From Cupriavidus pauculus (GTDB taxonomy: Bacteria; Pseudomonadota; Gammaproteobacteria; Burkholderiales; Burkholderiaceae), in assembly GCF_008801835.1 (NCBI RefSeq), contig NZ_VZOW01000013.1, forward strand, positions 1 to 64,000: 64,000 nt of DNA, read 5' to 3'. The translations under genes were made by a program, and so were the position numbers. Under the pieces are notes generated by a model, which ran no database searches, was not told the origin of the DNA, and worked only from the letters and a program-made list of their open reading frames with translations. Of this stretch, positions 11,750-63,554 are shown piece by piece (the first letter of the stretch is position 1; every line of letters begins with the position of its first letter).

Positions 11750-12808
11750 ATGGCTTATTACAATAAAAATAAGAATGAAGAAAACAAAGAAAGAAAAGAC
11801 CACTTTCAAGAGTTGACTGACAAGCTTATTAAAAGGCTTGAGGACGATATCAATTATGAAAAACCTTGGTTCGTCTGCAATGAAGCTCCTTTCAATCCCG
11901 TCACTGGCACAAAATATAGAGGCATCAACTTCGTTTCCCTATTGGAGAACGGCTATGACGATCCTCGCTTCTACACATTCAACAACATCAAATCCCTTGC
12001 CGAAGAAACGGGACAAAAGCTCCATGTGAGGAAGGGAGAACATGGCTCACCAGTCTTCAAAGCCGTCCAAATTGAAATCAAGGCAAAGAAAGACGGAGAA
12101 GTAGAGATCGGCAGTGATGAGGGTGAAGGTAAAGAAAAAGCCAAAATTTGGGTGCTTGCCTACTCTGGAACGGTCTTCAACGGCTCCCAGATAGAGGGGC
12201 TTGAGCCTTACCAATTCCGTGAGAGACCCGCCTTCCAGCAACAAGAGGAAGCTGAGAAGGTTATTGAAGCCATGAAGGCCAAAGGGGGAGTCGATCTACA
12301 CTTCCACTCAGAGGGCAAGGCTTTCTATCAACCTAGTGCGGATCGTGTCGTCTTGCCTCATCGTGAGCTGTTCAAGAACGATGCCTTGTTCTATCGCACT
12401 GCCTTGCATGAATTCGGTCACTCCACGGGGCATCCTTCAAGACTCAACAGAGACCAAACGGGAGAATTCGGAAGTGCCAAATATGCTCGTGAAGAGCTTG
12501 TTGCTGAGCTGAGCTCGTATTTCATGGGTGCTGAGCTTGGGCTTCCCTATGACGGCCGAACTCATGACAACCATGCTGCCTATGTTAAGAGCTGGCTCCA
12601 AGCTCTCAAAAACGACAAGAGCTTTATTGTCAAAGCCTCACAAGCTGCCGCCAAATCGGTTGATTTCCAACTCACAAAACGAGATGAGTATGTGAAAGAC
12701 CTTGAACAACAAAAAGCTACCTCCAAGGCTTACGATGACATGATGGCTAAACTTGGAAAAACCACAAGGGAGCGAGAACAACAAAAGACGGTTGCACTCA
12801 GCCGATAA
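11750..12808 (+). CDS. ardC: ArdC antirestriction protein with C-terminal tag
   Basis: 352 residues. The N-terminal part (FQELTDKLIKRLEDDI ... YRGINFVSLL) is the ArdC single-strand-DNA-binding domain. The zincin-like peptidase domain carries HEFGHSTGH near residue 220, with the third ligand region EELVAELSSYF. By family, ArdC shields incoming plasmid DNA from host restriction. It starts at the ATG behind TGAGG; further upstream ATGs lack sites. After the usual domains it ends in AYDDMMAKLGKTTRER, the motif shared by five other proteins here. It is one of the few plus-strand genes, with its own promoter and operator, which fits early expression after transfer. Confidence 0.92.
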   Translation: MAYYNKNKNEENKERKDHFQELTDKLIKRLEDDINYEKPWFVCNEAPFNPVTGTKYRGINFVSLLENGYDDPRFYTFNNIKSLAEETGQKLHVRKGEHGSPVFKAVQIEIKAKKDGEVEIGSDEGEGKEKAKIWVLAYSGTVFNGSQIEGLEPYQFRERPAFQQQEEAEKVIEAMKAKGGVDLHFHSEGKAFYQPSADRVVLPHRELFKNDALFYRTALHEFGHSTGHPSRLNRDQTGEFGSAKYAREELVAELSSYFMGAELGLPYDGRTHDNHAAYVKSWLQALKNDKSFIVKASQAAAKSVDFQLTKRDEYVKDLEQQKATSKAYDDMMAKLGKTTREREQQKTVALSR

Positions 12809-12839
12809 TGTTTAACCCGATATCCTTCCTCTTGAAGAC

Positions 12840-12871
12840 CAAAAAAGCTCCTAGTCGGAGCTTTAATTTTT
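12840..12871. terminator. Bidirectional terminator
   Basis: AAAGCTCC-TAGTC-GGAGCTTT between convergent ardC and the lipoprotein gene. Confidence 0.8.
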
Positions 12872-12890
12872 TTCGTGTGTGCCTGGAGTA

Positions 12891-13358
12891 TTACTGGATT
12901 GCAGCAATGCGAGCATTGTTCTTGTCGGTGCCGATAAGTTGAACTCTCTGACCAACAGCAAACTTCTCATCTGTCTTTTCAGTGATAGCAACGGTTGCTC
13001 CAGTGTCTTCCATCTTCAACACGAACTCAGTAGCTTTGTTATTAGATAAAGCTCTCTCGATTGCTTGACCTCCGATAGCTCCCAAGATAGCTCCACCAAG
13101 GCCGCCAAGAATTTTGCCTCTTCCACCACCGACTTGTGTACCTATTGCTCCACCAGCAACACCCCCGCCTAAAGCTCCCACTCCGCTTGTGTTCTCTTTG
13201 ATTTGAACATCACGCATGGCAATGATGGTGCCGTAGCTCACATGAACAATGGAATTGCTCTGTTGAGCTGTGTATTGATTGCTTGTTGGAACTAAGCCAG
13301 CACAACCAGTCAATAAAATACTTGTGGCGATTAAGCTTGTTAAGATTGTCTTCTTCAT
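12891..13358 (-). CDS. Glycine-zipper outer-membrane lipoprotein (SlyB/Pcp-like)
   Basis: 155 residues. A lipoprotein signal peptide with lipobox LLTGC is followed by about 45 residues and a glycine-zipper double helix (GALGGGVAGGAIGTQVGGG, KILGGLGGAILGAIGGQ). A C-terminal beta domain follows. This matches SlyB/Pcp-type envelope lipoproteins. The start at 13358 follows AAAGGAGACTAT. On an element of this type it may stabilise the envelope around the mating apparatus; that role is inferred. It is a single gene behind a class A promoter. Confidence 0.85.
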   Translation of the reverse strand: MKKTILTSLIATSILLTGCAGLVPTSNQYTAQQSNSIVHVSYGTIIAMRDVQIKENTSGVGALGGGVAGGAIGTQVGGGRGKILGGLGGAILGAIGGQAIERALSNNKATEFVLKMEDTGATVAITEKTDEKFAVGQRVQLIGTDKNNARIAAIQ

Positions 13359-13385
13359 ATAGTCTCCTTTAAAGTTATATTTCAA

Positions 13386-13413
13386 GTTATAAAGAAAAAA
13401 TGAATTTTGTCAA
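13386..13413 (-). promoter_or_regulatory. Class A promoter
   Basis: TTGACA, 16 bp, TATAAC before the glycine-zipper lipoprotein gene. Confidence 0.8.
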
Positions 13414-13417
13414 TCTA

Positions 13418-13432
13418 ATCTATCCGATAGAT
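13418..13432. promoter_or_regulatory. Class A operator palindrome
   Basis: ATCTATC-C-GATAGAT, perfect 7-bp arms, just upstream of the -35. Confidence 0.6.
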
Positions 13433-13454
13433 GAAAATAATTCTGTCGGAAAAA

Positions 13455-13480
13455 TAAAAAGCCACTCGTGAAAGTGGCTT
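13455..13480 (-). terminator. Terminator
   Basis: GCCACT-CGTGA-AAGTGGC followed on the minus strand by TTTTTATTTT. Confidence 0.75.
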
Positions 13481-13501
13481 AAAAGAATGGCGAAGAATCA
13501 A

Positions 13502-16531: not shown

Positions 16532-18145
16532 TTATGCCGCTTCTTTGTGAACCATATGCTGAGCTTTGTTGATGATTTCATTTGCAGACTCAATAGAATT
16601 GTCAATCTCTTGGAAGTCATCATTGTAGGCAACTGCTTCATAGATACTTCTTCTTGTCACCATGCCTCGTTGGGCGATACCAATTGCTGTGAATGGTGTT
16701 TCAAGCTCTTGAATACAATTCTCATTGAAGATGTGTTGTGGTTCTTTGGATAGCTGGATACTTGCACCACATGGCATTTCACCTGATCTGTTGGTTTGAT
16801 TATACATTGGATTCTTGGGATCACTTTCTACCTTACGAACTCGTGCCACTGAGTTTCTATGGAAGAAACCATCAAGCTCAGAGAAAGAAAATGCTTTAAG
16901 TTTTTTTCTTTGTGGGTTGGTGGTATCAAACCAAGGTGTACCCATTTGAAGCTGAGCATTCTTTTCAAAATCAATGATTGGATTTCCGCCTATCTTCTCA
17001 ATCACTCTTGCTTTGCCAATTTTATGTTGAACATAAGCGTAGGTTGCTTCTGTGGATTTGAATGAGAAGATTGAAGCAAAAGCACCCATAAATTTACCTC
17101 CACCGTCTTTGCCGTACTTCTCGTAGATAGAGTCAATGTTTTGGCTTGCGAACCAGCAAACAAGCTCAAGAGAACGTGCTTCTGGCAAGATAGCTAAATC
17201 CATCTCATCAAGGAATCGTTGGCACTCGTCAACAAACAAGAAGACACGGCTGTAACCTCTTTCAAGAGCATTGTTTCCTCTGTTTTTGATTTCGTTGTAA
17301 AGACGTGCCTTCGCTAAAGATTGGATAGCAAGTCCCGCAGATCCATACTTGGATTCTTCAAGTGCTATACCGATCTTTGCTCCCATCAAGATATCGCTAA
17401 GGTTAAAGTCTGATGTCTCAGAGTTGGCCCAAGGTCTTAGGTATTCAGATTGAAGGAATATCATCAACCAGCTTTCCACATTAAAGACAACAGAATTTTT
17501 TGTTTCGTCTGCCAGTTCGTTAAAGCGAATGTATTTCTTCAAGGCATCGTTCAAGATAGTGCCGTCTTTCATCAAATCTATTTTTGCTTGGCCTTCCGCA
17601 AACTGATCCAAGATTGGATGAGAATATTTCTCTTGTGGCTCATCGTTTTCGTCAAGGTATGCAACCATTTGAGAAGGCTTCGCCATATCAAAGATGGTCT
17701 GAATGTGAGCTGCTGGGGAATTGCTAATCCCTTTGTACTTTACAAGTGCCTGGTGAAATACCATGCCGTAGAAAAGCAAGCTCTCACCAGCATTCATCCA
17801 CACTGAGTTTGCTTTGTGTTCTGCTCCAGCAAACAAGTTCAAAATCGTCTTGGCGAAAATTTCTGGTTTTTGGTTTTCGAAGTAGTTAAAGTTTTTGACT
17901 GTCTCTGGGCTAACAACCAAGTCCAAAATCTTGCGAACTTCCCAAGGTAAAGGTCCCTTACCGTCAAGAACCAACATACCGTTTTTGTAGTTGACGGGAT
18001 ACTCATCAACTCCTTTGGCAATTGGAGTCTTGCTAAATTTGCTTTTCAAGTTTGAGAAGCCTTCGGCAAGCTTCTGTCTCAATCCCTTCTTGTTAGGAAC
18101 CCCATCTATTTCTCTGGTGGTATCTAATGCGGCTGTAATACTCAT
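16532..18145 (-). CDS. VirD4/TraG-like ATPase, Walker-B half
   Basis: A 537-residue protein with the second half of a coupling-protein ATPase. It has the helical segment WMNAGESLLFYGMVFHQAL, the Walker B RVFLFVDECQRFLDEM near residue 303, and the following ARSLELVCWFASQNIDSIYEKYG. In VirD4/TraD proteins this combination follows a P-loop in the same chain. Here no P-loop is present; it sits in the gene overlapping by 4 bp upstream. The pair probably forms one composite ATPase. A frameshift is unlikely, because the ATGA overlap and the AAGGAGACAAT site look like a genuine gene boundary. Confidence 0.72.
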   Translation of the reverse strand: MSITAALDTTREIDGVPNKKGLRQKLAEGFSNLKSKFSKTPIAKGVDEYPVNYKNGMLVLDGKGPLPWEVRKILDLVVSPETVKNFNYFENQKPEIFAKTILNLFAGAEHKANSVWMNAGESLLFYGMVFHQALVKYKGISNSPAAHIQTIFDMAKPSQMVAYLDENDEPQEKYSHPILDQFAEGQAKIDLMKDGTILNDALKKYIRFNELADETKNSVVFNVESWLMIFLQSEYLRPWANSETSDFNLSDILMGAKIGIALEESKYGSAGLAIQSLAKARLYNEIKNRGNNALERGYSRVFLFVDECQRFLDEMDLAILPEARSLELVCWFASQNIDSIYEKYGKDGGGKFMGAFASIFSFKSTEATYAYVQHKIGKARVIEKIGGNPIIDFEKNAQLQMGTPWFDTTNPQRKKLKAFSFSELDGFFHRNSVARVRKVESDPKNPMYNQTNRSGEMPCGASIQLSKEPQHIFNENCIQELETPFTAIGIAQRGMVTRRSIYEAVAYNDDFQEIDNSIESANEIINKAQHMVHKEAA

Positions 18146-21254: not shown

Positions 21255-23642
21255 TTAGAACATGCTGATGGCTTTTGATTTTGACTGAGATTGGCTTTGG
21301 TTTTTTTGTGCGGCTTGCTTCATCATCTTGTCAAAGTCATCAACATAGTGACTGATTGGCTTGCTTGCTTCGATCTCTGCCAACAATCTTGCACGGCGTT
21401 GCTCATCAGTTTCTTGAGGTTTGGACTCGGTCTTTTGAGCCTGCTGCTCTTGCTTCTGTTTTTGCTGCTGTCCAATGCTCTTCATCATGTCGTCGTATGG
21501 ATGACTTTCTTGCTGAGGCTGAACTTGTTGAGGCTTCTGCTCGACTGGTGTTTGAGCTTGCTGATTTGCGTTCTCTCTCTCGTTAGTTCGGTAAGTGTCC
21601 CCGTTGTACTCAAACATTTCAGACTCGTTTGTTTGAGCTGGTTTTTCAACGGTGGCTTCCCAAGAATTTCTGTGAGTAGAAACTTTCTCACCTTGTTTTG
21701 TAGTTGCTTGAGCTGGGACTGTCTCTGTTTTTTGGAGATCAATGAAGTCACCTACTTGCACCTCAGCTCTATCTAATGCTGGTCCAATGTCGATTCCCCA
21801 TTTTGTTCTTTCTTTTCCATTCTCAAGAACGGTCACATAATAGCTTTGGTTGTTTTTGTCATCATGCAAGTAAGGAGCACTGCCGTAGTCAACTACAACA
21901 CCTCTTACATGGTTAGGGTCAACTTTCTCGGCTGTTTTTGGGCTGTTTTGAGCGATTTCTACGGCTTGGATAGGTTGAGCTACCTCTTGCACCGTTTGAG
22001 CGGTTTGTGGGGCATTTTGAGAGGCAAGGATGCTCTGGATAGACTCTTGAGCTGGTGCCTGGTCGATAGCTGCAAGCTTTTCCTGGCGACGTGCTTCGTA
22101 TGCTTGTAGGCGAGACTTCACATCCTCAACTGAGCTGTATCCCTCGCGGTTAGGTTTCATGGTAAGAGGAACAGTGTGAGCAACGGCTTCAAGTGTTTGA
22201 CTCTGCTCGTGCTGTTTAGAGATAGCTTTGGTCTCTTCTGGATACATCTTTTCAATCTTGCTGATGTACTCGGCATTCTCAAGCTGGCTGTACTTGGTGT
22301 AGGCAGCTTGGAATTGCTTCTCTTCCTTAAATGGAATTTTCTGGTCGACAAGCTCAGTGTGGCGAACATTGAAGTAGGTTTGCTCTACCTTGTGTTTTGC
22401 CTCTTGGGTCTTCAAGGCTTCAAAGTCTCCGTTGAAGTTGGAAATCTCTTTCTGCTGAGTTAGGCGAAGCTCACCCGCTGCAATAGAAACGGCTGCATCG
22501 ATGTTCTGTCCAGCAATCAAATCCTTATTCTGGAATGCTCGTGTGCTTTTTGCATTACTGTAGACTTCGTTGTACTGCTGATTTCTCTCAATGATTTCGC
22601 CAGTGGTTTTTAGCTGATGAACTTCACCAGTCTCAACATCACGATATCGGGACTCTGGGGCAACATTTACAAACATGCCTTGTGTGTTATCTAAGAAGTT
22701 TCGAGGACCTTTGGCATCGTCAATATTGTCGTGAATTTGCTCTTTTGCTTCTGCTACGGTTGGATATTTAGATTGGCGATACTCTTCAAGTAGCAATTGT
22801 TTTTGTTCTTCTGCTTCTCTTGCTTCCTTAGCTGCCACTCTGTCTTGCTGATTCTGTGAATCAACTCTCGCAATAATGTCTTTCTGACCTTGTGAATACC
22901 CATCACGATCTAACCATGCTTGCATTTGAGCTGAGATTTTGCTTTCTGGAATCTCGGCTTTAACCTGGTTGTCTTGGTTAGGTTGTGCTGGGTCTTCGAT
23001 TACTTGAGACTTCACATTGATATCGGGAATCACTGGAACCTCATAACCGCTTGAAGGTATCCAATGATTCAATCCATCAAGCTTGTCTTGGATTCCTTGA
23101 GCAATTTGATTGATTGTGTCGTTAACATGAGTCTCAAAGTCAAAGTTCGTTTTGTACGCGAAGTAGCTATCTTGAAGTTTGTCTAGGTTGGGTTCTCTTT
23201 CTTCAGTCTTTGCGAGATTCATTTCATAAACTTCTCGCTCAAGATCGTGCTTGCGCTTTAATTCAGGATAAGCTTCTGGTGTTGTGTTCAACAACTCTTC
23301 CATGTGAGTGTTGATCATGTGGTTGTGGGACTGCTTCAAAATGTCTTTGACTTCAACATCTTTGTTTGTCGCATAGTCTCCGTATAACTTGGTTAAATCA
23401 TTGATGGCGAAGTCTGGGCCATTGTCAGTGTCGTAGACGGATTTGATAATGGCGAAATTGAAAAAATCGCGTGGCTTGTCACTATCAAGAATCATGTTGT
23501 CATTCAATTCATGATTTAATGCATCAAGTGAGTATTCTTGAATTGGCTCAATTTGGACATTGATTTTGGTTTCTGGTGTCCAGTCCCATTGAGCTATTGT
23601 TGATTTGTGCCATTGATAATGCTCGTCTTTCATATCAAACAT
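21255..23642 (-). CDS. Large conjugation-associated protein with KfrB-like domain and tag
   Basis: 795 residues, acidic and Gln-rich, largely coiled coil. Near residues 590-680 a compact domain reads VRGVVVDYGSAPYLHDD ... SYYVTVLENGKERTKWGIDI ... ALDRAEVQVGDFIDL. I recognise this as the KfrB-like domain found in plasmid relaxases and zeta-toxin-type proteins. Near the end come HPYDDMMKSIGQQ and then DDFDKMMKQAAQ, versions of the motif shared with ArdC and others. The start at 23642 follows ATAAGGAGACC. It lies between the split-ATPase and coupling-protein genes. It may be a transferred helper protein; no catalytic motif is seen. Confidence 0.7.
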   Translation of the reverse strand: MFDMKDEHYQWHKSTIAQWDWTPETKINVQIEPIQEYSLDALNHELNDNMILDSDKPRDFFNFAIIKSVYDTDNGPDFAINDLTKLYGDYATNKDVEVKDILKQSHNHMINTHMEELLNTTPEAYPELKRKHDLEREVYEMNLAKTEEREPNLDKLQDSYFAYKTNFDFETHVNDTINQIAQGIQDKLDGLNHWIPSSGYEVPVIPDINVKSQVIEDPAQPNQDNQVKAEIPESKISAQMQAWLDRDGYSQGQKDIIARVDSQNQQDRVAAKEAREAEEQKQLLLEEYRQSKYPTVAEAKEQIHDNIDDAKGPRNFLDNTQGMFVNVAPESRYRDVETGEVHQLKTTGEIIERNQQYNEVYSNAKSTRAFQNKDLIAGQNIDAAVSIAAGELRLTQQKEISNFNGDFEALKTQEAKHKVEQTYFNVRHTELVDQKIPFKEEKQFQAAYTKYSQLENAEYISKIEKMYPEETKAISKQHEQSQTLEAVAHTVPLTMKPNREGYSSVEDVKSRLQAYEARRQEKLAAIDQAPAQESIQSILASQNAPQTAQTVQEVAQPIQAVEIAQNSPKTAEKVDPNHVRGVVVDYGSAPYLHDDKNNQSYYVTVLENGKERTKWGIDIGPALDRAEVQVGDFIDLQKTETVPAQATTKQGEKVSTHRNSWEATVEKPAQTNESEMFEYNGDTYRTNERENANQQAQTPVEQKPQQVQPQQESHPYDDMMKSIGQQQKQKQEQQAQKTESKPQETDEQRRARLLAEIEASKPISHYVDDFDKMMKQAAQKNQSQSQSKSKAISMF

Positions 23643-23675
23643 AGCGGTCTCCTTATATGAGTTTTTATACATTTA

Positions 23676-23697
23676 ATGTATCAAAAGATTCATTAAA
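23676..23697. promoter_or_regulatory. Promoter region with inverted repeat
   Basis: Minus-strand TTGATT, 16 bp, TACATT overlaps AATGAATC-TTTT-GATACATT. A GCCTTGTAGACTTG element lies immediately upstream and recurs at 27708-27721. Confidence 0.5.
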
Positions 23698-24518: not shown

Positions 24519-27500
24519 TTAAAAAGGCGAAGAGCCTTGTGTTTCTTTCTCTCTACGGATTTCTCTTCTTCTTTCCTCAACAACTTGCTTGAACTTCTCT
24601 TTATCGTTGGTTTTGGTGACACTGCTACCTATCAAGATATCTGCGGTGTGCTTGATAGCTGATAGAGCATGACTGTCCACCACTGACTCAACAATCGCAT
24701 CCTTGGCTACTTCTCCCGTGGCGTCTTCTTCATCCTTGCTCAAGATGTAGATAGGTGCTCGTTCGTCCCTCAATTTCAAGCTCTCAAGCATCTGTTGGTT
24801 CTCTTCCTCCGTGAGCTCGTGCTGAACTTGGTAGGCTTCCTCTGGTGTTTCTGATTCCCAAGTGCCAGCGTCGACAACCTGGTCGAGTTCTGGTTGCTGA
24901 GAGGTGGGTAGCTCGTTCAATACCCAGCGGTTGATTGGTTGCTTGTCCTTCTCGAGATCGTGTAGGGCTCCGTTCGCCAAGATATCGTGTGCCACTTTCT
25001 TGAAGTCGTTTGGCTTGGGATTCTTCTTGCGGTCTATCCAGTCTGCGGGTTCTGGGTTCGTTACTGTTTTGTAGCTACATACAGGGGTCTCAAGTATGTA
25101 AGCTTTGGGCATATTAGCTCCAAGGTACAAATAACGAATGGGCAGCTTCTTGGGTGAGGTTATCAAGCCCTTTGCATATTGTTCTGGAAGTAGCTTGGCA
25201 AAGAAATTCCATATCTTCTGAGAGAAGGTCAATTGTGGATAACCGTTTTGATCAAGACCAAGCTTGCTGTTGACCTCATCGGGAGTGATGACAATGCCCT
25301 CATGTTCTTGCCAGTTTTGGGAAAAACTTTTGCCGTTTTCTTGATATGTGACTGAGCCATGAAGCTTCTTGAACCATTTCTTACCAACGGCATTGCTGAT
25401 TAATTCAGTATCCTTGCCCATATTGGAGCCGATAAAGAAAATATTGCCCGTGTTTCCTAGTAAGAAATCCACAAACTCTTGCCCATATCCTTGTATCTTG
25501 ATGAGCTGGGAAAGTGCTTGTACAGCAAGCATGACAGAAACACCCTTGGATGCAAATCGCTCAAGTGCCGGATAAATAAAGTCGCTGATATTTCCTAATG
25601 CTTGGAATTCGTCCATCAATATGTAGAACTGGCGAACGAAACCAGCATCCTTGTCGTCTAGGAAAGCGTCATCGTCAATGATACCCTTGGCATAGAACAA
25701 CATGCCTCGGACAAGGGGATTGGTTAATGTTGAATATTGCCCAGAAGTCTTCAAGACAAATATCTTTTTCTCTGGGTTCTCGTCGTAGATCCAATCTCTA
25801 AATGAGAATCTAGGTTGAGTCTCAAATTTGTCCCATGTGTCGTACCACGTGAAAATTGGTGCGAGCTTGGTGATCAAGGTTTGGTGGTCGTTCGTGTTCG
25901 TAATTGAAGCAAGCTCGTGACTACTGAGATTGTTTGCTACCACATCAAGAATCACATCCTCCCAATGCTCCAAGGTTTCGACCATGCCGACAAATGGGAT
26001 TTCGTCGTGTCTGTGCTTTCTAATCAAAGCTCTGAATACAAGGTTTGCTTGTTTCTCTTCTGGCTTTGAGAACTGCTTGCCGACAAATTCAATCATGTCA
26101 TCGTCGGTGTTGAAGCTGAATCCTCGCTGAAGCAATCGCATGGTTGCTTGAGTGATGGGAAGCTTGATGGCATCATTGATAAATAGAGTCCTCTCGTCTG
26201 GGGTCAATGACTCAATAGCAAAGGCGAAGATTTCACGGTATGGTTTCTTGAGAATTTCAACCATATTCGCCCATTTCCATCTTAAGCCTTCCTCGTTGCC
26301 AATGTCCTTGTTTAATGAGCGAATGAGCCCTCTAAAAACAAGGTGAGGAATGACATTCTCAACGATGACTGGTGGTTCTCCATCTTTATTTTTCTCTTTG
26401 AAAATCGGAATTAGATGCTCAGCAAGGCGAATCTGATTTTCGTCGTATTGGTCTTGTAGTAAGCGAACGGACATTTGATTGATGTCTCGCTTGTATTGAT
26501 AGCCATCCCAGATTTCAGCTAATTGAAGCAAGTGCTTTGTGAAACTCTCCATTGTTCCCAGCACGTTTGAGAGAGTTGTTTCCCCCATTTGGATAATTTG
26601 AAGTGCTTCGGGATAGTGGCGTCTGATGATGGGCTCAAGCTCTTCAGGTGTGAGCTTCAAGTAGTGAACGACATTATTGAAACTCCAATCTGTTCCGCAT
26701 GTGTCGATAAGCGCTACTGTTGAACCTACACCGACTGAGCGAGCGGTGTTAGGCCAGAATGGGTCTTTGTCACTGTCGGGAATTTGGCCTTTCCAAAATT
26801 CCTCAGCATGTAGCTTGTTTTCAAAATCTTTTGCCACCCACCAGGCAACTCCATTTTTATTATGTGGAGCAATCATATGCATCATTTCAATGGGTATGTC
26901 TCGGCTGTAATCTGCCTTGGCTGTGTCCACTATGAAGAGCTTGATGAGTTCCCCAGCAAGAATTCTTCGTTTGAATTCGTGTGTTCTCTTTTTGATAACT
27001 TGCGTCTTGCCTCGGCGTGAGCCTGCTGCAAAAAGGAAGTGAGGTCTGCGTTGACCATCTGGCATACAAACCTTCTCATTGGGCTTGAGCTGGTCCAGAT
27101 CGGGGTCATTGGGGTTGTAGCCGTTGTCTGTTTCCATGATGAAGGCTGGCTCGATGCCGTCATCTGCCTCTCGTCTGAGCTGGTTGGCTAGGTCTCGTTT
27201 GAAGGTTGGATAAGCGTCCTCTCCCTCAACGAGCTCACGGCCACGGGTCTGAATCTCAACCTCAGTGGCTTTCCAAGCTGCAAAACCTATCTTGACGGCC
27301 GCAATGGTTCCCGCAAGGAAAGAGAACAACCATCTCCACCCAAGCCTTCCAAGCTCGCCTCTGTCGCCTAGCCAGCTAATCCATGCTCCGTACTGCTGGT
27401 AGTTCTCGCCTTGGAAAAATGGAACAAGCTTGCCGAACCACATCTCGTAGAACATGAGAAGGTGGTAGAGCGGTACGCGGTTGTTTGTTGGGAGTGGTAG

Positions 27501-27653
27501 CAGTGGAATGTCATGCCAGCTCAATAGAAGTGCTGCCGACATGAAAAAGAAAAACGATAAGATGACTAATGCGATTACTGAGCCGACATTGATATATGGC
27601 CCATCAATTAAATAAGAAGTTCCTGGCAACTTCAAAACTGGCTTCTGCTTCAT
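24519..27653 (-). CDS. traD: Type IV coupling protein, TraD-like
   Basis: 1044 residues. Two N-terminal membrane helices (VIALVILSFFFFMSAALLL; WLFSFLAGTIAAVKIGFAAW) lead to an FtsK/VirD4-type ATPase. Walker A is FAAGSRRGKTQ near residue 211, and Walker B is FYILMDEFQALGNISDF near residue 679, followed by VSVMLAVQALSQL. By family it brings the relaxase-DNA complex to the secretion channel and pumps DNA. Length, motifs and its place next to the relaxase fit. It is a single gene with its own promoter region carrying the GCCTTGTAGACTTG element. The symbol denotes family only. Confidence 0.85.
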   Translation of the reverse strand: MKQKPVLKLPGTSYLIDGPYINVGSVIALVILSFFFFMSAALLLSWHDIPLLPLPTNNRVPLYHLLMFYEMWFGKLVPFFQGENYQQYGAWISWLGDRGELGRLGWRWLFSFLAGTIAAVKIGFAAWKATEVEIQTRGRELVEGEDAYPTFKRDLANQLRREADDGIEPAFIMETDNGYNPNDPDLDQLKPNEKVCMPDGQRRPHFLFAAGSRRGKTQVIKKRTHEFKRRILAGELIKLFIVDTAKADYSRDIPIEMMHMIAPHNKNGVAWWVAKDFENKLHAEEFWKGQIPDSDKDPFWPNTARSVGVGSTVALIDTCGTDWSFNNVVHYLKLTPEELEPIIRRHYPEALQIIQMGETTLSNVLGTMESFTKHLLQLAEIWDGYQYKRDINQMSVRLLQDQYDENQIRLAEHLIPIFKEKNKDGEPPVIVENVIPHLVFRGLIRSLNKDIGNEEGLRWKWANMVEILKKPYREIFAFAIESLTPDERTLFINDAIKLPITQATMRLLQRGFSFNTDDDMIEFVGKQFSKPEEKQANLVFRALIRKHRHDEIPFVGMVETLEHWEDVILDVVANNLSSHELASITNTNDHQTLITKLAPIFTWYDTWDKFETQPRFSFRDWIYDENPEKKIFVLKTSGQYSTLTNPLVRGMLFYAKGIIDDDAFLDDKDAGFVRQFYILMDEFQALGNISDFIYPALERFASKGVSVMLAVQALSQLIKIQGYGQEFVDFLLGNTGNIFFIGSNMGKDTELISNAVGKKWFKKLHGSVTYQENGKSFSQNWQEHEGIVITPDEVNSKLGLDQNGYPQLTFSQKIWNFFAKLLPEQYAKGLITSPKKLPIRYLYLGANMPKAYILETPVCSYKTVTNPEPADWIDRKKNPKPNDFKKVAHDILANGALHDLEKDKQPINRWVLNELPTSQQPELDQVVDAGTWESETPEEAYQVQHELTEEENQQMLESLKLRDERAPIYILSKDEEDATGEVAKDAIVESVVDSHALSAIKHTADILIGSSVTKTNDKEKFKQVVEERRREIRREKETQGSSPF

Positions 27654-28025: not shown

Positions 28026-28053
28026 TTTATACGGAAGAAAATGGATTTGTCAA
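28026..28053 (-). promoter_or_regulatory. Promoter of the 27778 gene
   Basis: TTGACA, 16 bp, TATAAA, overlapping the last codons of the relaxase gene. Confidence 0.7.
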
Positions 28054-31000
28054 CGGATGATGTCATCTTTTTCCTTCTTCTTGCGTTTTTCTGTCTTTTT
28101 AGCCTGGTCTTTCATGATGGTCTGAAGACTGTCTTTCTGTTTATTGGCAAGCTGTGTAGGTTCTGATTTTTTCTTTGAAGCCTTGGTTTTCTGCTTGGCT
28201 GGCTTCTTGGAATCCTTGATAGTTGGCTCCGCTTTAGCCTCAGTCTGTTTAATCTCATCCTTCTTGATAAGCACTGGCTCGTTTCCAGAATATTCCTTGC
28301 CATCCTTGGTTTGAACCTCGACCTTGTGAGCTTCAGGATTGCTTTGAACTTCACTTCTCTGTTTAAGAGCATCGTAGTATTTATCTACTGCTAAACCATC
28401 CATGATCTGAAAATCGAAGGTACTCTTCTTGTAGGCAGTAGTGGACATGGCTTCAATGATTGAAGCAAAGTCGTCCATTCTGTGTCTTGGCTCAGTTTCT
28501 TTGCCTTTAATTTGAGGAACATGCTGGTTCAAGAAATTTCGAATATCAACAAAAGAGCCTTTCATTTCCTCGTCAAGAGTGATTCCATTTTTGGCTGCTA
28601 CATCCTCAGCCCACTTCAACATCTTTTTGGTGGGTTCCTTGTCGGCAAGTTCTTCTGCCCATTTGTTAGCAAGCTCGTCACTCAAATACATCTTGAAGCC
28701 GCTCTTGTGGCGTGAAACTCCAACATAAGCCAAGTGCATGTTGTCAAGATTAGTTGGTGCGTATTCGGTAGCTTCGTAAGTAGAGCCTTGGTTTTTGTGG
28801 ATTGTGGTGGCATATCCATTATTGACGTTGTGCTCTTTGTTGGTGGACAACCATACCTCTTTAGGTGCGTCTCCATTCGCTCCGTCGATCAATACCTTGA
28901 TTGCATTAACTTGATGCTTCTTGGTGAGTCTGTTGAAGACGGTTTTGAACTCGGTCACGGTTCCAAGCTCTGAGTTGACAACCTTCTCTTGCTCCACATC
29001 GTCACTGAGCTGACCTTTGGTGAAGACAATACGATCTCCAACACAAAAAGACTTCTCGCCGTCTTTGGTTTGAAGCTTTACCTCATCCTTGGGATCGCTT
29101 GAAAGAAGACCTTGCTCTTTCAAAGTGTCACGAATAATGCTGTTGATTCTGTCGCAATCTGCGTTGGTTCCAGCATAGGCGGCCTTCTTCATGAAAGCAT
29201 TTGGATCTTCCATGTAGTCCTGGGCTATTTTCTGGAATTTCTCTTCCTCAGTTTTGCAGATAATGATGCTGCCTTCATCAAACAAGGTTCTCATGCCTTT
29301 GCCGACTCTGCCATATCCGAAGTCTTGAACCATTTCACGGTGGCGAGCGGTATTTTGACGGTTGATTTCTGTTAGCTGCTCGCAAACAAAATCGTTGGAC
29401 ATGACTCTAAATGTTCCGCCATGTGCTACTGATTGAATCTGCTTGGCATCTCCGATACTGATTATTTTTGCACCAGATTCATTGACGTGCTTCATTAAGC
29501 GGTGGTAGTCGTCAAGGCAAGCCATGCCCATCTCGTCCCCAATAACTACGGTATCCTTGTTCCACTTCACTTTGCCCTTGTCGAGGTCATTCAACACCTT
29601 CGCCAAACTTCCATAAGAGCCTTCTTGGAAGCGAGCATCATTGGCTAAACCTTTGACTGCCTTGTTGGTTGGTGCCACTGCGAAAACATTCTTGCCGTCT
29701 GCTTCGTAGGATTCTTTGATAGCACGGGCAACGAATGATTTTCCTGTACCTGGATCACCCATAATGAAATGTGCTGAGCCTGGCTTGGTCATGATCGACA
29801 TGAAGCTTTCTCTCTGCCCTTTGGAGCATTTGACGGGCTTGTTAAGCTCACGGCTCATCTGGTTTTCAAAAGCAAGAAGTCTCTGAGCTGCCTTTTGTTC
29901 TGGGATAGTGAATTGGACTTCACCAGATCTAGCTTTGGCTGTCTCGTGCATGTATTGCTCTTGAGCTAAAACCTCCTTGGTTGTGAAGCTCATTTCACGG
30001 GTATAGCGAATTTGTTTTTGGCGGTATTCGTGCGGGTCAGTAATCTTTCCAGCAAGGAAGTCTTTGTAATAGTCCACTTTGGTCTTATCGATCATGTGGA
30101 CACATTGCTCTTCAAAGATACGGGCTGCTTCTCGTTGAGCCTTGTCCTTGTCCATATCGTTGATGAGTTGCTTGACCATATGGGCTTTGAATTGCCCTTC
30201 GGTGAAGTGAAGCTCTTTCATTTTGCGAAGAAAACCCTTCACAAGTTGCTGGTCTCGTTCTCTTGGATCGTTCTCAACGGCTCCATATTCAACAGGACCA
30301 TTCTTGTCCATCTCGGTTTTCTGGAACTTACGAACAAAGCCCTTGGTTAATGCCTCATCAGATCTCGTTGAGTAACCAAGGCGCACCTGGTTGAAGTCCA
30401 ACTTTTGCTTGATGGATTGAGAGGTCCAGCCCATGCCATCCATTTCTGCTTTCCACTTGGCTAACATTTCGGAAGGAGAGAGTTCTGATTTGTCGTCTCT
30501 GCTGGTAACACGTGCGATTTCAGTTGCTATGAAACCTTGTCCCTTTTGGGCTGCTGCCATTTCCTCACTTCTCTTGCTGTAGAAGTCTTGAACCATTTTG
30601 GGAACCCAATCATCAGGTAGGTCATAAGAGCAAATATTTTTCTCGTCGTCGGGTATGAAGTCGTCGTTTTTCTCGTCATCAAGAATCACTGGCTTAAACA
30701 CAAAGCCCATCTTATTCTCAAGCTCTTCCTTGATTTCAGCCTGGAAGCAAGCATTCAAGGTGTCCTTGTGTTTGGCAACTTCACCCATATACAAGGCGGT
30801 CAATTTGTCGTCAAAACCTCTTGCCACATTCAATACATCAAAGTGAAAGTGGATATAGGGCTCAACTCCGTTCTGTTCTGAGCCACGGTTTTCTATGTGC
30901 ATGTAGTTGACGGCCATGATTGAGCGAGCATAGTTCAAGGATTCTCCATCCTTGCCAGTTCTGACCATTGCATACTCAAGAGCAAGTGGCATGACCTTCT

Positions 31001-46078: not shown

Positions 46079-46092
46079 GGTGTCCGTTCCTC

Positions 46093-52694: not shown

Positions 52695-52699
52695 GTTTA

Positions 52700-55246: not shown

Positions 55247-55759
55247 TTAATACTGACCTCTAAGCCATTTTTCGTGCTGGTCCAGTCTGTCTATCAATCC
55301 ACCTGTTTTCTGTCTGAGTTCACCCCATTTGAAGGTGTGCTTGCCTTTGTAGGTCTCCAAGACAAGAGGGGCGAGTTGGTGAAAGACTTCCTTCGTTCTG
55401 GTGAGGATCGCCTTCTCGGTGTACCTGGCAAGCTCCAATTCAAAGTGAGCGTGATATGTGGTCTCGATCAGCTCTTGGCTCTCTGGAATGTGATTGAGAG
55501 AGAAATGAAGGTTGTAGTGACTCTTGTTGCTGGTTGGGTTGCTGATGCTCTGTAGGCTGAGCTCGTAGCAATCTGAACCAATCCACTCAGTAACCTTCAA
55601 GCCCTCATAGAAAGCATGGTTGAAAAGAAATCGCTTGAAGCTGTGGCTGTCGTCACGGATATATTCAATCTCAAGCTTCTTGTCCACGGTGGTTTTCTGT
55701 TCCATGTCTAGAAGGTGCCATTTCGCAACCAAGGCCATTGTGTATTCTTCAACGATCAT
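55247..55759 (-). CDS. Unknown 170-residue protein
   Basis: Soluble, alpha/beta (MIVEEYTMALVAKWHLLDME ... HEKWLRGQY). It overlaps the tag-bearing gene before it by ATGA, with AAGGAGCTTCAA before the start. Possibly the cytoplasmic partner or chaperone of that protein; this is inferred from coupling alone. Confidence 0.65.
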   Translation of the reverse strand: MIVEEYTMALVAKWHLLDMEQKTTVDKKLEIEYIRDDSHSFKRFLFNHAFYEGLKVTEWIGSDCYELSLQSISNPTSNKSHYNLHFSLNHIPESQELIETTYHAHFELELARYTEKAILTRTKEVFHQLAPLVLETYKGKHTFKWGELRQKTGGLIDRLDQHEKWLRGQY

Positions 55760-56184
55760 TTGAAGCTCCTTGTAGTTTTGGCGGTGCTGCTGGCTTTGTG
55801 CTTCTGCCCAAGGCTCTTCATCATGTCGTCGTAGACCAAAGCTGCTTGAAGGCTCTGAATGCCTTTGTAAGCTGAATCGATCATCTGAAGGGGATCGTCA
55901 AAGACGGCAGAGAATAGAGGCTTCCCGTTCTTCAAGAATTCAATCTTGATCTGCTCGTGCTTGGCTGTGTGGTTGCCGACATTGAAGTACATATCAAGAT
56001 TTTGTTGTTCTCTGATTCTCTTGATATCTGCCATCTTGTCTTTGTAGGCTTGTGGCAAGTTGTCAGTTGGAAGCATGACAAGGCTTGGGTCGTAGTGAGA
56101 GGCGAGCTTGTTTAATTCTTGCTCTGTGCAAAGCTCAAGTATGAAATAGTTTTTTTGTCCTCTTAATCTGTCTGTTGAATTCAT
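55756..56184 (-). CDS. Unknown protein with C-terminal DMM tag
   Basis: 142 residues. An alpha/beta body (KNYFILELCTEQELNKLASH ... KNGKPLFSAVFDDPLQMIDS) is followed by VYDDMMKSLGQKHKASSTAK and a basic end. The motif is shared with ArdC and four others. The start at 56184 follows AAGGAGAACCAAC; an upstream ATG at 56289 lies in a hairpin region and inside the previous gene. Confidence 0.68.
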   Translation of the reverse strand: MNSTDRLRGQKNYFILELCTEQELNKLASHYDPSLVMLPTDNLPQAYKDKMADIKRIREQQNLDMYFNVGNHTAKHEQIKIEFLKNGKPLFSAVFDDPLQMIDSAYKGIQSLQAALVYDDMMKSLGQKHKASSTAKTTRSFK

Positions 56185-56249
56185 GTTGGTTCTCCTTGTA
56201 CCCCTAAAGCCCGCATGTAGCGAGCTTGATTGGTTGGGTGCTGGAGAAC

Positions 56250-56432
56250 TTATCCTTGGAAGTTGCCTGTATCTTCTAAAGACTTCCAAAAATCCTTGGC
56301 AAATTTTTTGATGCCGTCCTTGCTCAAGAATTTCTCAGCCTCGGGCTTTTCAAGTGTTGTATGTTCCAACTCTTGCTTCTTCTCTAAACTCTTATCTAAC
56401 TTCTTTTCCAATGGCTTATTCATCTTAAACAT
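56250..56432 (-). CDS. Small protein with a GIKK...FQG C-terminal end
   Basis: 60 residues, highly charged (MFKMNKPLEKKLDKSLEKKQ), ending SKDGIKKFAKDFWKSLEDTG plus NFQG. The end resembles that of the membrane protein at 61030 (KEGIKKVGVDLW ... HFQG). Function unknown. Confidence 0.62.
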   Translation of the reverse strand: MFKMNKPLEKKLDKSLEKKQELEHTTLEKPEAEKFLSKDGIKKFAKDFWKSLEDTGNFQG

Positions 56433-56795: not shown

Positions 56796-57380
56796 TCATA
56801 CCTTGATTTTTCCAGCTCGTGTGATTGATTGCTCTTGCTTGTCCTTATGTTGGATACCAAGCTTTTTCATCATGTCTTCGTAGCTGTCTTTTTGAGGAAG
56901 GGTGGTGTCAAGTTTGTTGGCAAGTTTTACTGAGTTCGCTGTATCTCGCACCCATTGAGCTGTTTCCTCTTTAATGTTTCTGACTTGAGGAATCGCAATC
57001 TCGACATCCGCTCCCTTGTTAATGAGCATTTGTGTGGCTCCTGTTTGGTGGGCTTCTATGGCGACTACAAGGGCATGTTCTCGTTTTGCATGAATATCAG
57101 CCCCATGATCTATTAAGACAGCCATATTGCCAAGATACCCCCAATGGGAAGCAAGTATCAATGCATATGGGTATTGTCTTGAGTCGGCTCCCTTATCGAT
57201 GAGCGCTTTCATAATCTCTGGATTGTCTCTTGATGCTGCCACTGCTTCAAGGTGTGTAGATCCGCGTTCTCCGCTGTAGTTGGCGTCAAATAATTCATGC
57301 TCCATTAACTTCTTGGCATCAGTAACATAACCTTGACGTATGTCGGAAATGAAATTCTCGTTGACTGTGTAGTAATCCAT
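56796..57380 (-). CDS. Ankyrin-repeat protein with C-terminal DMM tag
   Basis: 194 residues. Four to five ankyrin units cover residues ~15-135 (HLEAVAASRDNPEIMKALID, YALILASHWGYLGNMAVLID, ALVVAIEAHQTGATQMLINK). The end is LPQKDSYEDMMKKLGIQHKD and a basic tail. Its last 105 bp are identical to those of the 62793 gene. Ankyrin proteins bind other proteins and are frequent among type IV effectors. It lies 9 bp after the 57390 gene, in one operon. Confidence 0.8.
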   Translation of the reverse strand: MDYYTVNENFISDIRQGYVTDAKKLMEHELFDANYSGERGSTHLEAVAASRDNPEIMKALIDKGADSRQYPYALILASHWGYLGNMAVLIDHGADIHAKREHALVVAIEAHQTGATQMLINKGADVEIAIPQVRNIKEETAQWVRDTANSVKLANKLDTTLPQKDSYEDMMKKLGIQHKDKQEQSITRAGKIKV

Positions 57381-57389: not shown

Positions 57390-58706
57390 TTATAGTTTAA
57401 TTTTGCCTTCTCTGGTCATTGATTGATTTTGCTTAGTCTTATGCTCAAGCCCAAGTTTCCTCATCATGTCTTCGTATGGATCTTTTTGAGCAAGGTTGAT
57501 GTCAAGCTTGTTCTTGTTGACAATTCGGTTTAATGCTTGCTCAGGGTCTTGATTGCCGACCATGCTTTTCAATTTATCTGACATGTGATCGTAGGCTTTT
57601 GTCTCAAGAATAAGCTCTGGATCGTTTCTAAGTGGATAAGAGGCTTTCGCAACAATCTCTTTGTCTTTCTTTCCCATCTCAAGCACAAGCTCTCTGTCGG
57701 ACAAGAATGATGGCTCAATGCTGGTAGCGGGTTTTTTGTAGTCTGTACCATGCAATTCTTGCTCGACTTCTTTCGTAAGTCCCTCAGAGATTGGTTTGAA
57801 ATCTTTGTGTGATAAAGCATCTTTGAAGACTTCTCTATCTGCTCGTAGCTCGTCGCCTAGATAGTGGAAAATTTCTGGGGATACCTTAACGGCTTGTTGA
57901 GCGAAGTCTTTGTTATCAAGAAGCTCTCTATCTAAAACAGGATAGAACTGGTGTTCCCCTTTGAGAGCTTGTAGGGCAATATCAGTATCTTTTTGGAGAT
58001 GTCTATCTAAGTTAAGATATGCTGCTGGATCGGCTGCTACTAGGTCCATTGCGAAAGGCTTATCTGCAAGTAGGTTGGATGGTAGAGAGTAATATCTGCC
58101 ACTTTGACCTTGGGCACTTAAAGTCTCAAACCAATGTTTGTCCCTCTCTGAGGCATTGGGTCTTTCGGCTCTTTGGCGAGCTCGTTCAATGAGTTCTGGA
58201 TCAGCTTTCAAATAGTGCTTGAATTTCTCTTGGGCTGTTTCATTGCTTTTCGCGTCTCTCCAATCATCATCCCAAGTCTCAGCATGAATTGCATGAGCAT
58301 AGGCAAGGACAATCTCCTTGTCTTGTTTTAGCTCATCCCCCATTGAGTCCATAATTCCGGTTTTTCTTGCTTTTGAATTCAAGGCAGATAGATAGAAATC
58401 TCTATCGTTTCTGACCTCATCGCTCATGTCTGCAAGAGGAAAAGTGGAAGTTCCGAACCATAAACTACGTGCGGCATCTAGTGCTTCAAGAGCAAACTCT
58501 CGGCTGTTTTTTAATCTGTCTGAGGCGTATTTAGCCAAGTCGCCATCTTGTTCAACACAAGCGATCATGAACTTTTCATTGTCAAAATATTCTTGTGGTA
58601 GTAGCTTGGATTTGTCTTTGCAATCACTTTGGTAAAGCTCTTGAGCCATCTTCTCAAAGTCGTCGGTGATTTGGATTGGCTCTATTTGATCAAGTGTTTT
58701 TTCCAT
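57390..58706 (-). CDS. DUF4116-like repeat protein with C-terminal DMM tag
   Basis: 438 residues made of repeats such as LKNSREFALEALDAAR, VRNDRDFYLSALNSKA, LKQDKEIVLAYAHAIH, LRADREVFKDALSHKD and LRNDPELILETKAYDH. I recognise the DUF4116-type pattern seen in Legionella and other intracellular-bacteria proteins. It ends LAQKDPYEDMMRKLGLEHKT and a basic tail. First gene of the pair with the ankyrin protein. It is a candidate translocated protein; no enzyme motif seen. Confidence 0.75.
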   Translation of the reverse strand: MEKTLDQIEPIQITDDFEKMAQELYQSDCKDKSKLLPQEYFDNEKFMIACVEQDGDLAKYASDRLKNSREFALEALDAARSLWFGTSTFPLADMSDEVRNDRDFYLSALNSKARKTGIMDSMGDELKQDKEIVLAYAHAIHAETWDDDWRDAKSNETAQEKFKHYLKADPELIERARQRAERPNASERDKHWFETLSAQGQSGRYYSLPSNLLADKPFAMDLVAADPAAYLNLDRHLQKDTDIALQALKGEHQFYPVLDRELLDNKDFAQQAVKVSPEIFHYLGDELRADREVFKDALSHKDFKPISEGLTKEVEQELHGTDYKKPATSIEPSFLSDRELVLEMGKKDKEIVAKASYPLRNDPELILETKAYDHMSDKLKSMVGNQDPEQALNRIVNKNKLDINLAQKDPYEDMMRKLGLEHKTKQNQSMTREGKIKL

Positions 58707-61011: not shown

Positions 61012-61029
61012 TCATTGTGGCTGGTGAAT

Positions 61030-61200: not shown

Positions 61201-61220
61201 GATAAGTCTCCTTGTTGTGG

Positions 61221-61748: not shown

Positions 61749-61779
61749 AAATCCTCCTTTGTATATTTTTTCCTTGTAG

Positions 61780-61980: not shown

Positions 61981-62006
61981 GATTGTCTCCTTGTAGTTAT
62001 GGTTGG

Positions 62007-62025
62007 TAGCCCGTAAGGTGGGCTA
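62007..62025. repeat. Intercistronic hairpin
   Basis: TAGCCC-GTAAGGT-GGGCTA. Confidence 0.55.
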
Positions 62026-62035
62026 ATCCTTGTTG

Positions 62036-62287
62036 TTAGTCACCAATTTCAAGTTGGCGCAACATGCGATCTCCTTCCTTTCTTGCTTCTTTGTCAATTT
62101 CAAATCTATTTCTAGACAAGAAGTTATAAATTCTTATGGTTTCTTTGTATTTTTTAGACACTTCAGTAGCAACAGTTATGAAATCAGTGTCGCCGTCAAA
62201 ACAGTATGCGTGAGAAAGTTTGTGCAAAACATTGTAGTACGCATCAATTTTGTCTTGTTTTAATTGAGCCTTGGCTTTGTCATTCAT
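62036..62287 (-). CDS. Unknown small protein
   Basis: 83 residues, helical and charged (MNDKAKAQLKQDKIDAYYNV...). First gene of a class B unit that continues to the SGNH hydrolase. Not recognised. Confidence 0.6.
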   Translation of the reverse strand: MNDKAKAQLKQDKIDAYYNVLHKLSHAYCFDGDTDFITVATEVSKKYKETIRIYNFLSRNRFEIDKEARKEGDRMLRQLEIGD

Positions 62288-62321
62288 GGCGGGTCTCCTT
62301 GTTTGTTTTTGTTATATATTT

Positions 62322-62349
62322 AATTTAACGGTTATTTGGAATATGTCAA
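62322..62349 (-). promoter_or_regulatory. Class B promoter
   Basis: TTGACA, 16 bp, TAAATT, with the tandem site from about 62373. Confidence 0.7.
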
Positions 62350-62424
62350 CATAATGACCGATTAAATCTTGACTTTTAGATAAACGGTAAACTTCAAGAT
62401 AGAAGGTAAGATTGATTGATGAAT

Positions 62425-62720
62425 TGAAGATGTTGGCTTTTTTGATCGTCAAAGCCTGAAAATTGGCTTGCGAGAAGGGGCTACAAGCCTCTGTTTGAGG
62501 TTGGTTGGTGCTTTGGTATGTCTCGGGTGGAAAACGGCTCCACGGGGCTAGAAATGGCCTTCCTGAGCCTGTGCCCAAACATTGAGCAAAAGGTGAGTGT
62601 TTTCGGGAGGGTAGGAGTTGGTCTCTACCTGGTGGAGTTGGTGCCGTAGGCTGGGAGACCTGGCTGAGCGGCTTGACCGCTAGGAAAGCTAAGGCTTTCT
62701 TGAAGATGACTTTGAGGATT
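62425..62720 (+). ncRNA. Long noncoding RNA-like block, copy 2
   Basis: It occupies most of the 62288-62792 gap. 62463-62560 matches 37932-38030 in order (GGCTTGCGAGAA, GGGGCTACAAG, GGTTGGTGC, GCTCCACGGGGCTA). The 3' module is GCC-GTA-GGC, AGCGG-CTTGA-CCGCT (62667-62681) and GAAAGC-TAAG-GCTTTC (62684-62699), then TTGAAGATGACTT. No credible gene. Confidence 0.5.
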
Positions 62721-62756
62721 GGTTAGGTTCCTCATTTAAGAAGGCTGGGAGCCAAT

Positions 62757-62780
62757 AAAAAAGCCCTCCGAAGAGAGCTC
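62757..62780 (-). terminator. Terminator
   Basis: GAGCTCTC-TTCG-GAGGGCT followed by a minus-strand T run; nearly the same hairpin as at 56765. Confidence 0.65.
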
Positions 62781-62792
62781 ATGGTGATTGGT

Positions 62793-63554
62793 TCATACCT
62801 TGATTTTTCCAGCTCGTGTGATTGATTGCTCTTGCTTGTCCTTATGTTGGATACCAAGCTTTTTCATCATGTCTTCGTAGCTGTCTTTTTGAGGAAGCTC
62901 ACGATCCAATTTGATGGCATTAAGCTTGTTTGCTACTTCTTGAGCATGGTCAAACTTTTCCTGTGCAGATGGATTTACTTGCTTGTTAAGTCTAGTGGGG
63001 TTAATCATCTTCTTGATATTCTCGAAGTCAGCTCCTTTGACTAAATTCTCTTCAATAACATCCTTTCTCCATTTGATATCGTCGGGGTGGTGGTCTCGCA
63101 CTTGGATGAAGTCTAAAACAGCTTGCTCGCGCTCTTTATTGAGTGTTTCTTGGTTCAATGGCCTGAATGATTTTTTGTCGTTATCATGATCTACGAAGCC
63201 ATAATGGGTGACGTCATGTTGTTTATTGTAAGACCAAGAGTTTGTTTGTTCGTCAAAGAGATAGTTGAAGTCCTTTTGCCAATATTGTTTTCTTGTTTTG
63301 TAGTGGTCAATATCGGTGAAGCTGCGGGAGTATTCTGGATTTTTCCCCACCCCATAAAATTCCGTTGATTGTTTGGTTTCGCCAAGACGATCCATTGCCT
63401 CACCTTTTATCAAGTTCTTTACGGATTCAGCATCCTTGTAGTGGTTGAGTAATTTTTCACCAACTCCACCAATCAAGTAGCCGTCATGGTGGCAATAAGT
63501 CATGTTAATAGTTCCATCCTTATTTAAAATTGCGATTGTTGCGTTTGTAGACAT
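62793..63554 (-). CDS. Unknown protein with C-terminal DMM tag
   Basis: 253 residues. The first 70 (MSTNATIAILNKDGTINMTY, CHHDGYLIGGVGEKLLNHY) resemble a small domain I recall from phage and plasmid proteins (I-Y-C-H-x-D-G-Y). The middle is charged. The end is LDRELPQKDSYEDMMKKLGI and a basic tail, encoded by 105 bp identical to the ankyrin gene's end. AAGGAGAAAATCT precedes the start. Candidate translocated protein. Confidence 0.72.
   Translation of the reverse strand: MSTNATIAILNKDGTINMTYCHHDGYLIGGVGEKLLNHYKDAESVKNLIKGEAMDRLGETKQSTEFYGVGKNPEYSRSFTDIDHYKTRKQYWQKDFNYLFDEQTNSWSYNKQHDVTHYGFVDHDNDKKSFRPLNQETLNKEREQAVLDFIQVRDHHPDDIKWRKDVIEENLVKGADFENIKKMINPTRLNKQVNPSAQEKFDHAQEVANKLNAIKLDRELPQKDSYEDMMKKLGIQHKDKQEQSITRAGKIKV

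Follow-up and report, generated by a model that had tools for sequence, protein, structure and literature searches.

In this work, we asked why six proteins with unrelated bodies, encoded in one stretch of Cupriavidus pauculus DNA, carry the same short motif, in five of them close to the C terminus. The stretch analysed (hereafter the window) comprises 64,000 nucleotides, i.e. positions 1-64000 of the 140,131-base contig NZ_VZOW01000013.1 (assembly GCF_008801835.1), and the six genes belong to an integrative and conjugative element (ICE) of 81 kb, which spans contig positions 944-82142 and has integrated into a tRNA-Arg(CCU) gene. A previous interpretation of the DNA letters alone (the sequence-only reading) had proposed that the motif marks helper or effector proteins for export during conjugation. 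Our analysis points the same way: with a probability of roughly 55 %, we favour a C-terminal translocation signal private to this ICE, which would be read by the element's coupling complex and would send the antirestriction protein ArdC and its partners to the recipient. C-terminal signals of type IV systems are already known; what is new is a near-identical short motif on six candidate cargo proteins, confined to one element in the collections searched.

Six-frame translation of the window recovered the motif Y-(D/E)-D-M-M-x-x-(L/I)-G (hereafter the tag) in all six proteins named by the sequence-only reading and nowhere else in the window. Apart from ArdC, these proteins are designated below by the lower coordinate of their gene. 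The Y[DE]DMM sites lie at 12731 on the forward strand and at 21497, 55833, 56882, 57476 and 62879 on the reverse strand, each within the named open reading frame (ORF) and each followed by xx(L/I)G. The earlier claim that five copies stand near the C terminus also held: the Tyr is 25 residues from the end in ArdC and 55756, 28 in 56796, 57390 and 62793, and 80 in 21255. Besides this exact copy (YDDMMKSIG), 21255 has a second, degenerate one, FDKMMKQAA, whose Phe is 26 residues from the end. The motif is trailed by 16-19 residues in the five proteins, and the tails are basic: the final 25 residues carry a net charge of +2 to +5 in all six tagged proteins and in the element's relaxase (7/7 at +2 or more, versus 32 of the 91 other ORFs of the element). 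Such a position (five of six at 25-28) and such a charge are those expected of a type IV translocation signal.

The bodies preceding the tag proved to be as unrelated as the sequence-only reading had stated. ArdC-N (E 3e-18) and MPTase-PolyVal (E 2.7e-40) matches identify the first protein as an ArdC antirestriction protein; by Pfam matches, 56796 is an ankyrin protein and 57390 a DUF4116 protein; 62793 has a phrog_1987-like body; and 55756 had no family match in our scans. The label 'KfrB-like' formerly given to 21255 has to be replaced, as this protein matched no Pfam family and was instead found to be MobP1/LPD7-like, with a weak match to the MobP1 C-terminal model (NF041450, E 9e-12, below its cut-off) and a resemblance to plasmid proteins annotated LPD7. 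In ArdC, the match to the anti-restriction profile phrog_7245 extends to residue 333 and the tag starts at residue 340; in 62793, the phrog_1987 body extends to residue 114 and the tag starts at 226; since these profiles end before it, the tag lies outside the body known elsewhere in both proteins. Against curated Pfam families, the six tails gave one match (E 0.077, below its cut-off), and the tag corresponds to no known Pfam domain. PADLOC indicated no function for the tagged proteins beyond the ankyrin match, and searches of plasmids gave no match with the 62793 protein and a single Mycoplasmopsis record with the DUF4116 protein.

The conjugation setting assumed by the sequence-only reading was confirmed in that a DotA/TraY-type system, a coupling protein and a relaxase were found in the same element (Table 1). 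The two halves of the host tRNA-Arg(CCU) each contain a copy of a 12-base repeat (944-955 and 82131-82142), and joining the flanks yields an intact 75-nt tRNA; the GC content is 43 % in the window, versus 65-66 % after contig position 82,142. The DotA/TraY family protein was matched by TIGR04346 at E 2.1e-145 (485.9 bits versus a cut-off of 100). On the evidence of its integrase, att repeats, relaxase, coupling protein and transfer genes, the element is an ICE with a putative type IVB-like transfer system. Homologues of DotB, DotG, DotH, DotI and DotO were not named among the proteins scanned, which represent part of the ORFs and are very divergent. A search for relatives of the coupling protein gave none in the viral contigs and none at E 1e-40 in 398 other genomes of the order; the 368 other genomes of the class yielded a single partial match (29 %, E 9e-17), and nine plasmid records matched at about 24-29 %. 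Another DotA homologue, with 30-42 % identity in two pieces, is encoded elsewhere in the same genome (G000:C26:4248-6281, in L193), on a contig without tags.

Table 1. Coordinates of the tagged 3' ends and of the integration and transfer features of the ICE (positions in the window)
Feature	Position	Strand	Evidence and remarks
attL (12-base repeat), within one half of the host tRNA-Arg(CCU)	944..955		Repeat comparison; attR at contig 82131-82142, outside the window
Tyrosine integrase adjoining attL	1002..2336	+	Phage_integrase E 8e-16
Tag YDDMMAKLG and tail of ArdC	12731..12808	+	Gene 11714-12808; motif scan, ArdC-N and MPTase-PolyVal matches, anti-restriction profile
TraG/TraD C-domain ATPase-like transfer protein	16532..18145	-	Family match
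Exact and degenerate tag copies of the 805-residue MobP1/LPD7-like protein	21255..21497	-	Gene 21255-23672; motif scan, family and plasmid-protein matches
Type IV coupling protein, candidate tag reader	24519..27653	-	TrwB_AAD_bind E 2.2e-23
MobF/TraA-like relaxase-helicase	28050..31532	-	TraA_Ti E 5.6e-65, MobF E 1.2e-14, both below curated cut-offs
Relaxase C terminus, faint tag-like stretch QKDSLQTIMKDQ (Tyr-equivalent 25 from the end)	28050..28127	-	Profile and pairwise comparison; suggestive only
Tag YDDMMKSLG and tail, protein without family match	55756..55833	-	Gene 55756-56289 (possible ATG at 56184)
YEDMMKKLG, 34-residue tail cassette and stop, ankyrin protein	56796..56900	-	Gene 56796-57380; 105 bases identical to 62793-62897
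Tag YEDMMRKLG and tail, DUF4116 protein	57390..57476	-	Gene 57390-58706; motif scan, family match
105-base tail cassette as in 56796-56900, unrelated phrog_1987-like protein (body residues 1-114)	62793..62897	-	Gene 62793-63554

The tag was further assessed for its occurrence elsewhere. Its Y[DE]DMM codon pattern, TAYGANGAYATGATG, is present six times in the 6,415,608-base genome (111 contigs), each time inside the element, while the reversed codon pattern, taken as a control, had no match in the whole genome. The element represents 1.27 % of the genome, and six independent matches would all fall within it at p of about 4e-12, a value that overstates the case because the copies are not independent, the tail behaving as a cassette (see below). 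Among 197 other related genomes, 27 short-pattern matches were found in 25 genomes; seven of them were within 35 residues of the stop and none was followed by xx[LIMFV]G. A profile of 35 positions built from the six tails recovered these same six from the genome itself (E 3e-20 to 4e-15) and had no match in the 368 other genomes of the class (E 0.01) or in 59 genomes of the genus (E 0.05). The outcome that the sequence-only reading had named as fatal to its proposal, a profile equally common on proteins unlinked to conjugation, was thus not seen.

A longer DNA pattern fitting all six tags was then scanned over a collection of 84,980 species; this collection and that of viral contigs may omit records close to the window's own genome. 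Forty-eight matches were obtained, 35 of which belonged, by visual count, to a single conserved family resembling membrane transporters; four were within 35 residues of the stop, with a net charge of -2 to +1 in their last 25 residues, and none of the 48 had a comparable basic tail. The viral contigs contained 61 matches, eight of them within 35 residues of the stop, and a search of these contigs with the tail alignment, whose first row is the ArdC tail, the least typical, confirmed nothing. Single look-alikes can arise, and a tag on two different proteins was found in no other genome or contig searched. A chance origin of the tag was rejected on the genome counts and on the related-genome, species-wide and profile searches.

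A general signal common to other elements was not supported either: ten other genomes of the genus have a DotA homologue (26-41 % identity over the matched pieces) and none of them gave a profile match. C termini encoded around these DotA loci were also compared all against all, using nine of the ten genomes (G029 being left out and G042 contributing only 20 kb), the second DotA locus of the genome itself and two chromosomal controls; no comparable multi-protein tag was revealed among the best 14 pairs per set. As no second tagged element was found, the tag is considered element-private as far as searched. A full-text search of the open literature for the motif letters found no description of it among the part of the matches that was viewed, by title. 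Near the DotA homologue of one genome of the genus (G018, L213-L216), two ORFs (23453-23968 and 34432-35115 in the coordinates of the joined stretch) have in common a C-terminal stretch of about 16 residues ending ARWRNEAKKVLREV(V/M)HD, and are possibly a second, smaller case of common C-terminal ends.

Comparison of the tails at the DNA level gave insight into their spread. In 56796 and 62793, 105 bases are identical (34 codons plus the stop), from the Leu codon of LPQKDSYEDMMKKLG through the stop codon and no further; a terminator-like hairpin is partly shared behind the stop, and little likeness is seen upstream of the 105 bases. A copied 3' end sits on two unrelated bodies, and the 105 common bases show that the tail has moved as a 3'-end cassette. 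The tail of 57390 is a close relative. In ArdC, 55756 and 21255, the motif is kept, the flanks have largely diverged and silent codon differences occur inside the motif, at Gly, Asp and Lys positions; because the flanks are lost and silent differences have accumulated within the nine residues, the motif has been kept at the protein level and not merely copied. A stretch with LDKELPAKE at the C terminus of the 38513-39439 protein resembles the residues that immediately precede the tag of 56796 and 62793. This protein has no tag, frame-by-frame inspection behind its gene revealed no tag remnant, and its end may be a tail that lost the motif or never had it.

As regards structure, the Tyr, Met, Met and Leu of the tag, at i, i+3, i+4 and i+7, fall on one helix face, and the helical moment of the tag octamers is 0.42-0.73 (values without a null distribution). 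Single-sequence models placed a helix at residues 167-173 of the ankyrin protein, i.e. seven of the nine tag residues (mean predicted local distance difference test, pLDDT, 43), and a helix running through residue 127 of the 142 residues of 55756, which covers the tag (mean pLDDT 68); in neither of these low-confidence models does a helix follow the tag. A fold search with the 55756 model had no match at E 0.001. PDB profile matches, at E 0.05 and worse, involved FDDxMKSLG in the first helix of fatty-acid-binding protein; they were read as convergence and set aside.

If the tag were a transfer signal, the relaxase, the only substrate whose transfer is obligatory, should carry it or something like it. 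A profile of the five distinct tags (including the internal copy of 21255) was scored against the C-terminal 45 residues of 1080 ORFs, not all of them true genes, i.e. 98 of the ICE and the rest from chromosomal and same-genus stretches. The five tagged proteins ranked 1-5, the end of 21255 ranked 6 and the relaxase 7, at a distance of 25 residues from the end; all top seven ORFs are thus from the element. The gap behind the relaxase is small (8.8 bits versus 7.9 for the next ORF), and composition-keeping shuffles gave p 0.04 for the relaxase and 0.003 for the end of 21255. A faint version of the tag at the same distance from the relaxase end is suggestive only.

From these data we infer the following scheme. 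The approximately nine residues (Y/F-(D/E)-D-M-M-x-x-L/I-G) would fold into a short amphipathic helix capped by the Gly, followed by a tail that is basic, enriched in Lys, Gln, Ser or Thr and probably disordered. The coupling complex (the 24519 protein, with or without an adaptor) would recognise this helix and deliver the proteins bearing it to the recipient, either together with the DNA or alongside it. The presumed cargo would comprise ArdC, acting against restriction, the MobP1/LPD7-like protein and, as helpers, the ankyrin, DUF4116 and two other proteins, and new cargo could be recruited through 3'-end exchange, the tail moving as a cassette. A broader claim, which we put forward tentatively and at somewhat less than even odds, is that helix and basic tail are the element's own address label, a movable 3'-end cassette able to make any gene cargo, and that the relaxase bears a degenerate ancestor of it. 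Private labels of this kind may evolve in each conjugative element; general secretion-signal predictors would miss them because they seek signals common to several genomes. If this is true, elements recruit cargo by pasting a 3' end.

Several known systems share features with this scheme. In passages of PMC5512222, the ArdC of pSa and TraC1 are described as transferred as full-length proteins, and polyvalent proteins, which phages and conjugative elements encode, are suggested to accompany the DNA; the ArdC of the ICE, with its ArdC-N and MPTase domains, is built alike. The proposed 'header', ArdC-N, is however N-terminal there, and the same passages contain no shared C-terminal tag. For the F plasmid, excerpts of PMC11288057 and PMC8406263 report that a basic C terminus, within the final 25-50 residues, is able to carry a reporter and that varied bodies travel; cloned C termini with a net positive charge generally carried Cre through the F system, and natural signals recognised by coupling proteins vary even within one system (PMC11288057). 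F signals differ among substrates and can be internal, whereas the ICE has one near-identical motif on six proteins. Owing to this natural variation, recognition of protein cargo by coupling proteins is a long-standing question, and a single element with the same short signal on six bodies, natural variants, an internal as well as a terminal copy and a candidate relaxase version constitutes a ready series for binding and export tests.

The Dot/Icm machine is related through DotA/TraY, and portions of PMC7251119 describe an aromatic-led C-terminal helix, FxxxLxxxK, read by the adaptor LvgA of the coupling complex, as well as several signal types among Legionella effectors, which have no one common tag. 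The ICE motif differs from FxxxLxxxK and EExxE in sequence and spacing, and neither F-x3-L-x3-K nor the E-block EExxE occurs in the final 60 residues of any tagged protein or of the relaxase. The RalF-type Dot/Icm signal has a hydrophobic residue at -3, a feature found in four of the six tagged proteins and in the relaxase. The XVIPCD of X-T4SS (type IV secretion system) effectors and the BID of Bartonella are comparable in that one C-terminal module is borne by many unrelated bodies. These modules are folded, comprise some 100 residues or more and occur across many genomes, whereas the ICE tag is a short peptide found in one element.

Four other explanations were weighed against the translocation signal. 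The main one takes the tag for a docking peptide without export, the helix binding an element-encoded hub in the donor or in the new host (relaxosome, replication or partition complex, adaptor) and so holding the helpers together. A short helical motif with a basic disordered tail would suit any docking peptide, the relaxase may share the motif, and 21255 has two copies, as in a scaffold; nevertheless, an address label better fits both the strict near-C-terminal place in five of six proteins, where the degenerate copy of the sixth is also found, and the ankyrin and DUF4116 bodies beside ArdC. We consider docking unlikely; it has its first step, partner binding, in common with export. These same ankyrin and DUF4116 bodies, together with the link of DotA/TraY to Dot/Icm, could also speak for injection into the cells of a eukaryotic host, be it amoeba, fungus or plant, via the type IVB-like system, the element being a conjugation/effector-delivery hybrid. 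This appears very improbable, as ArdC and the MobP1/LPD7-like protein are proteins of bacterium-to-bacterium DNA transfer, the element is marked as an ICE by its relaxase and integrase, and the tails lack EExxE and FxxxLxxxK.

We give hardly any weight to a neutral by-product of 3'-end recombination, i.e. a functionless tail cassette copied onto neighbours: it would account for the two tails identical up to and including the stop, the partly shared hairpin behind them and the close third tail, but ArdC, 55756 and 21255 keep the motif despite their diverged flanks and silent codon differences. Just as implausible in our view is a role in degradation or regulation, a protease adaptor being the reader of the tag. 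Short shared C-terminal peptides can indeed be degrons; the residues trailing the motif in five proteins, however, keep it away from the very end, a tag private to the element would have to depend on the proteases of each new host, and none of the ICE proteins scanned was named as a protease adaptor, the sole peptidase domain seen being the MPTase of ArdC itself.

Several observations weigh against a translocation signal. With no second element bearing the tag found, the tie to conjugation rests on one element (n = 1), in which no Dot/Icm part beyond DotA, the coupling protein, the TraG/TraD-like ATPase and the relaxase was recognised among the ORFs scanned. The relaxase match is weak: of seven pairwise shuffle tests, only that against the ankyrin tail gave p below 0.05 (0.0095), the others giving 0.06 (62793) and 0.09 to 0.80 (the five remaining), and the DNA comparison with the ankyrin tail gave p 0.10. 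The structure models are of low confidence. A net charge of +2 or more in the last 25 residues is also found in 32 of the 91 other ORFs of the element. Lastly, two chance look-alikes were encountered: an Enterococcus pallens protein (L116 282-307; one of the 48 species matches and of the four near a stop) ends ISYDDMMKKLGF, with the exact motif at the very C terminus (YDDMMKKLGF) and no tail, and one viral protein (L093 and L108; two of the 61 viral matches and of the eight near a stop) has YDDMMDILG with the Tyr 32 residues from the end and a net charge of +4/+5.

Other features of the ICE were recorded along with the tagged genes. The 16532-18145 and 18142-19293 genes overlap and resemble halves of one ATPase, with a Walker-A-like GAPGTGKT late in the 18142 product and the TraG/TraD C-domain in that of 16532; they look like a divergent or split transfer ATPase. 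Beside attR and outside the window, the ICE has its own tRNA-Arg(CCU) gene (contig 81628-81913; L036 17628-17913), interrupted by a group I intron of 211 bases (RF00028, E 4.7e-6, below the Rfam gathering score), and it seems to replace the tRNA-Arg(CCU) that its integration breaks. The EFDDIPF ending of the 13502-14464 protein resembles the C-terminal tips found in single-stranded DNA-binding proteins. By eye, the genes at 5424-10175 appear to be ICE cargo for an ABC transporter of amino-acid type, with two permeases, two binding proteins and an ATPase, and those at 45480-46204 appear to pair a RelE/ParE-type toxin with a Phd/YefM-type antitoxin. An AAA+ ATPase with an ankyrin-like stretch at its N terminus is encoded at 52700-54547.

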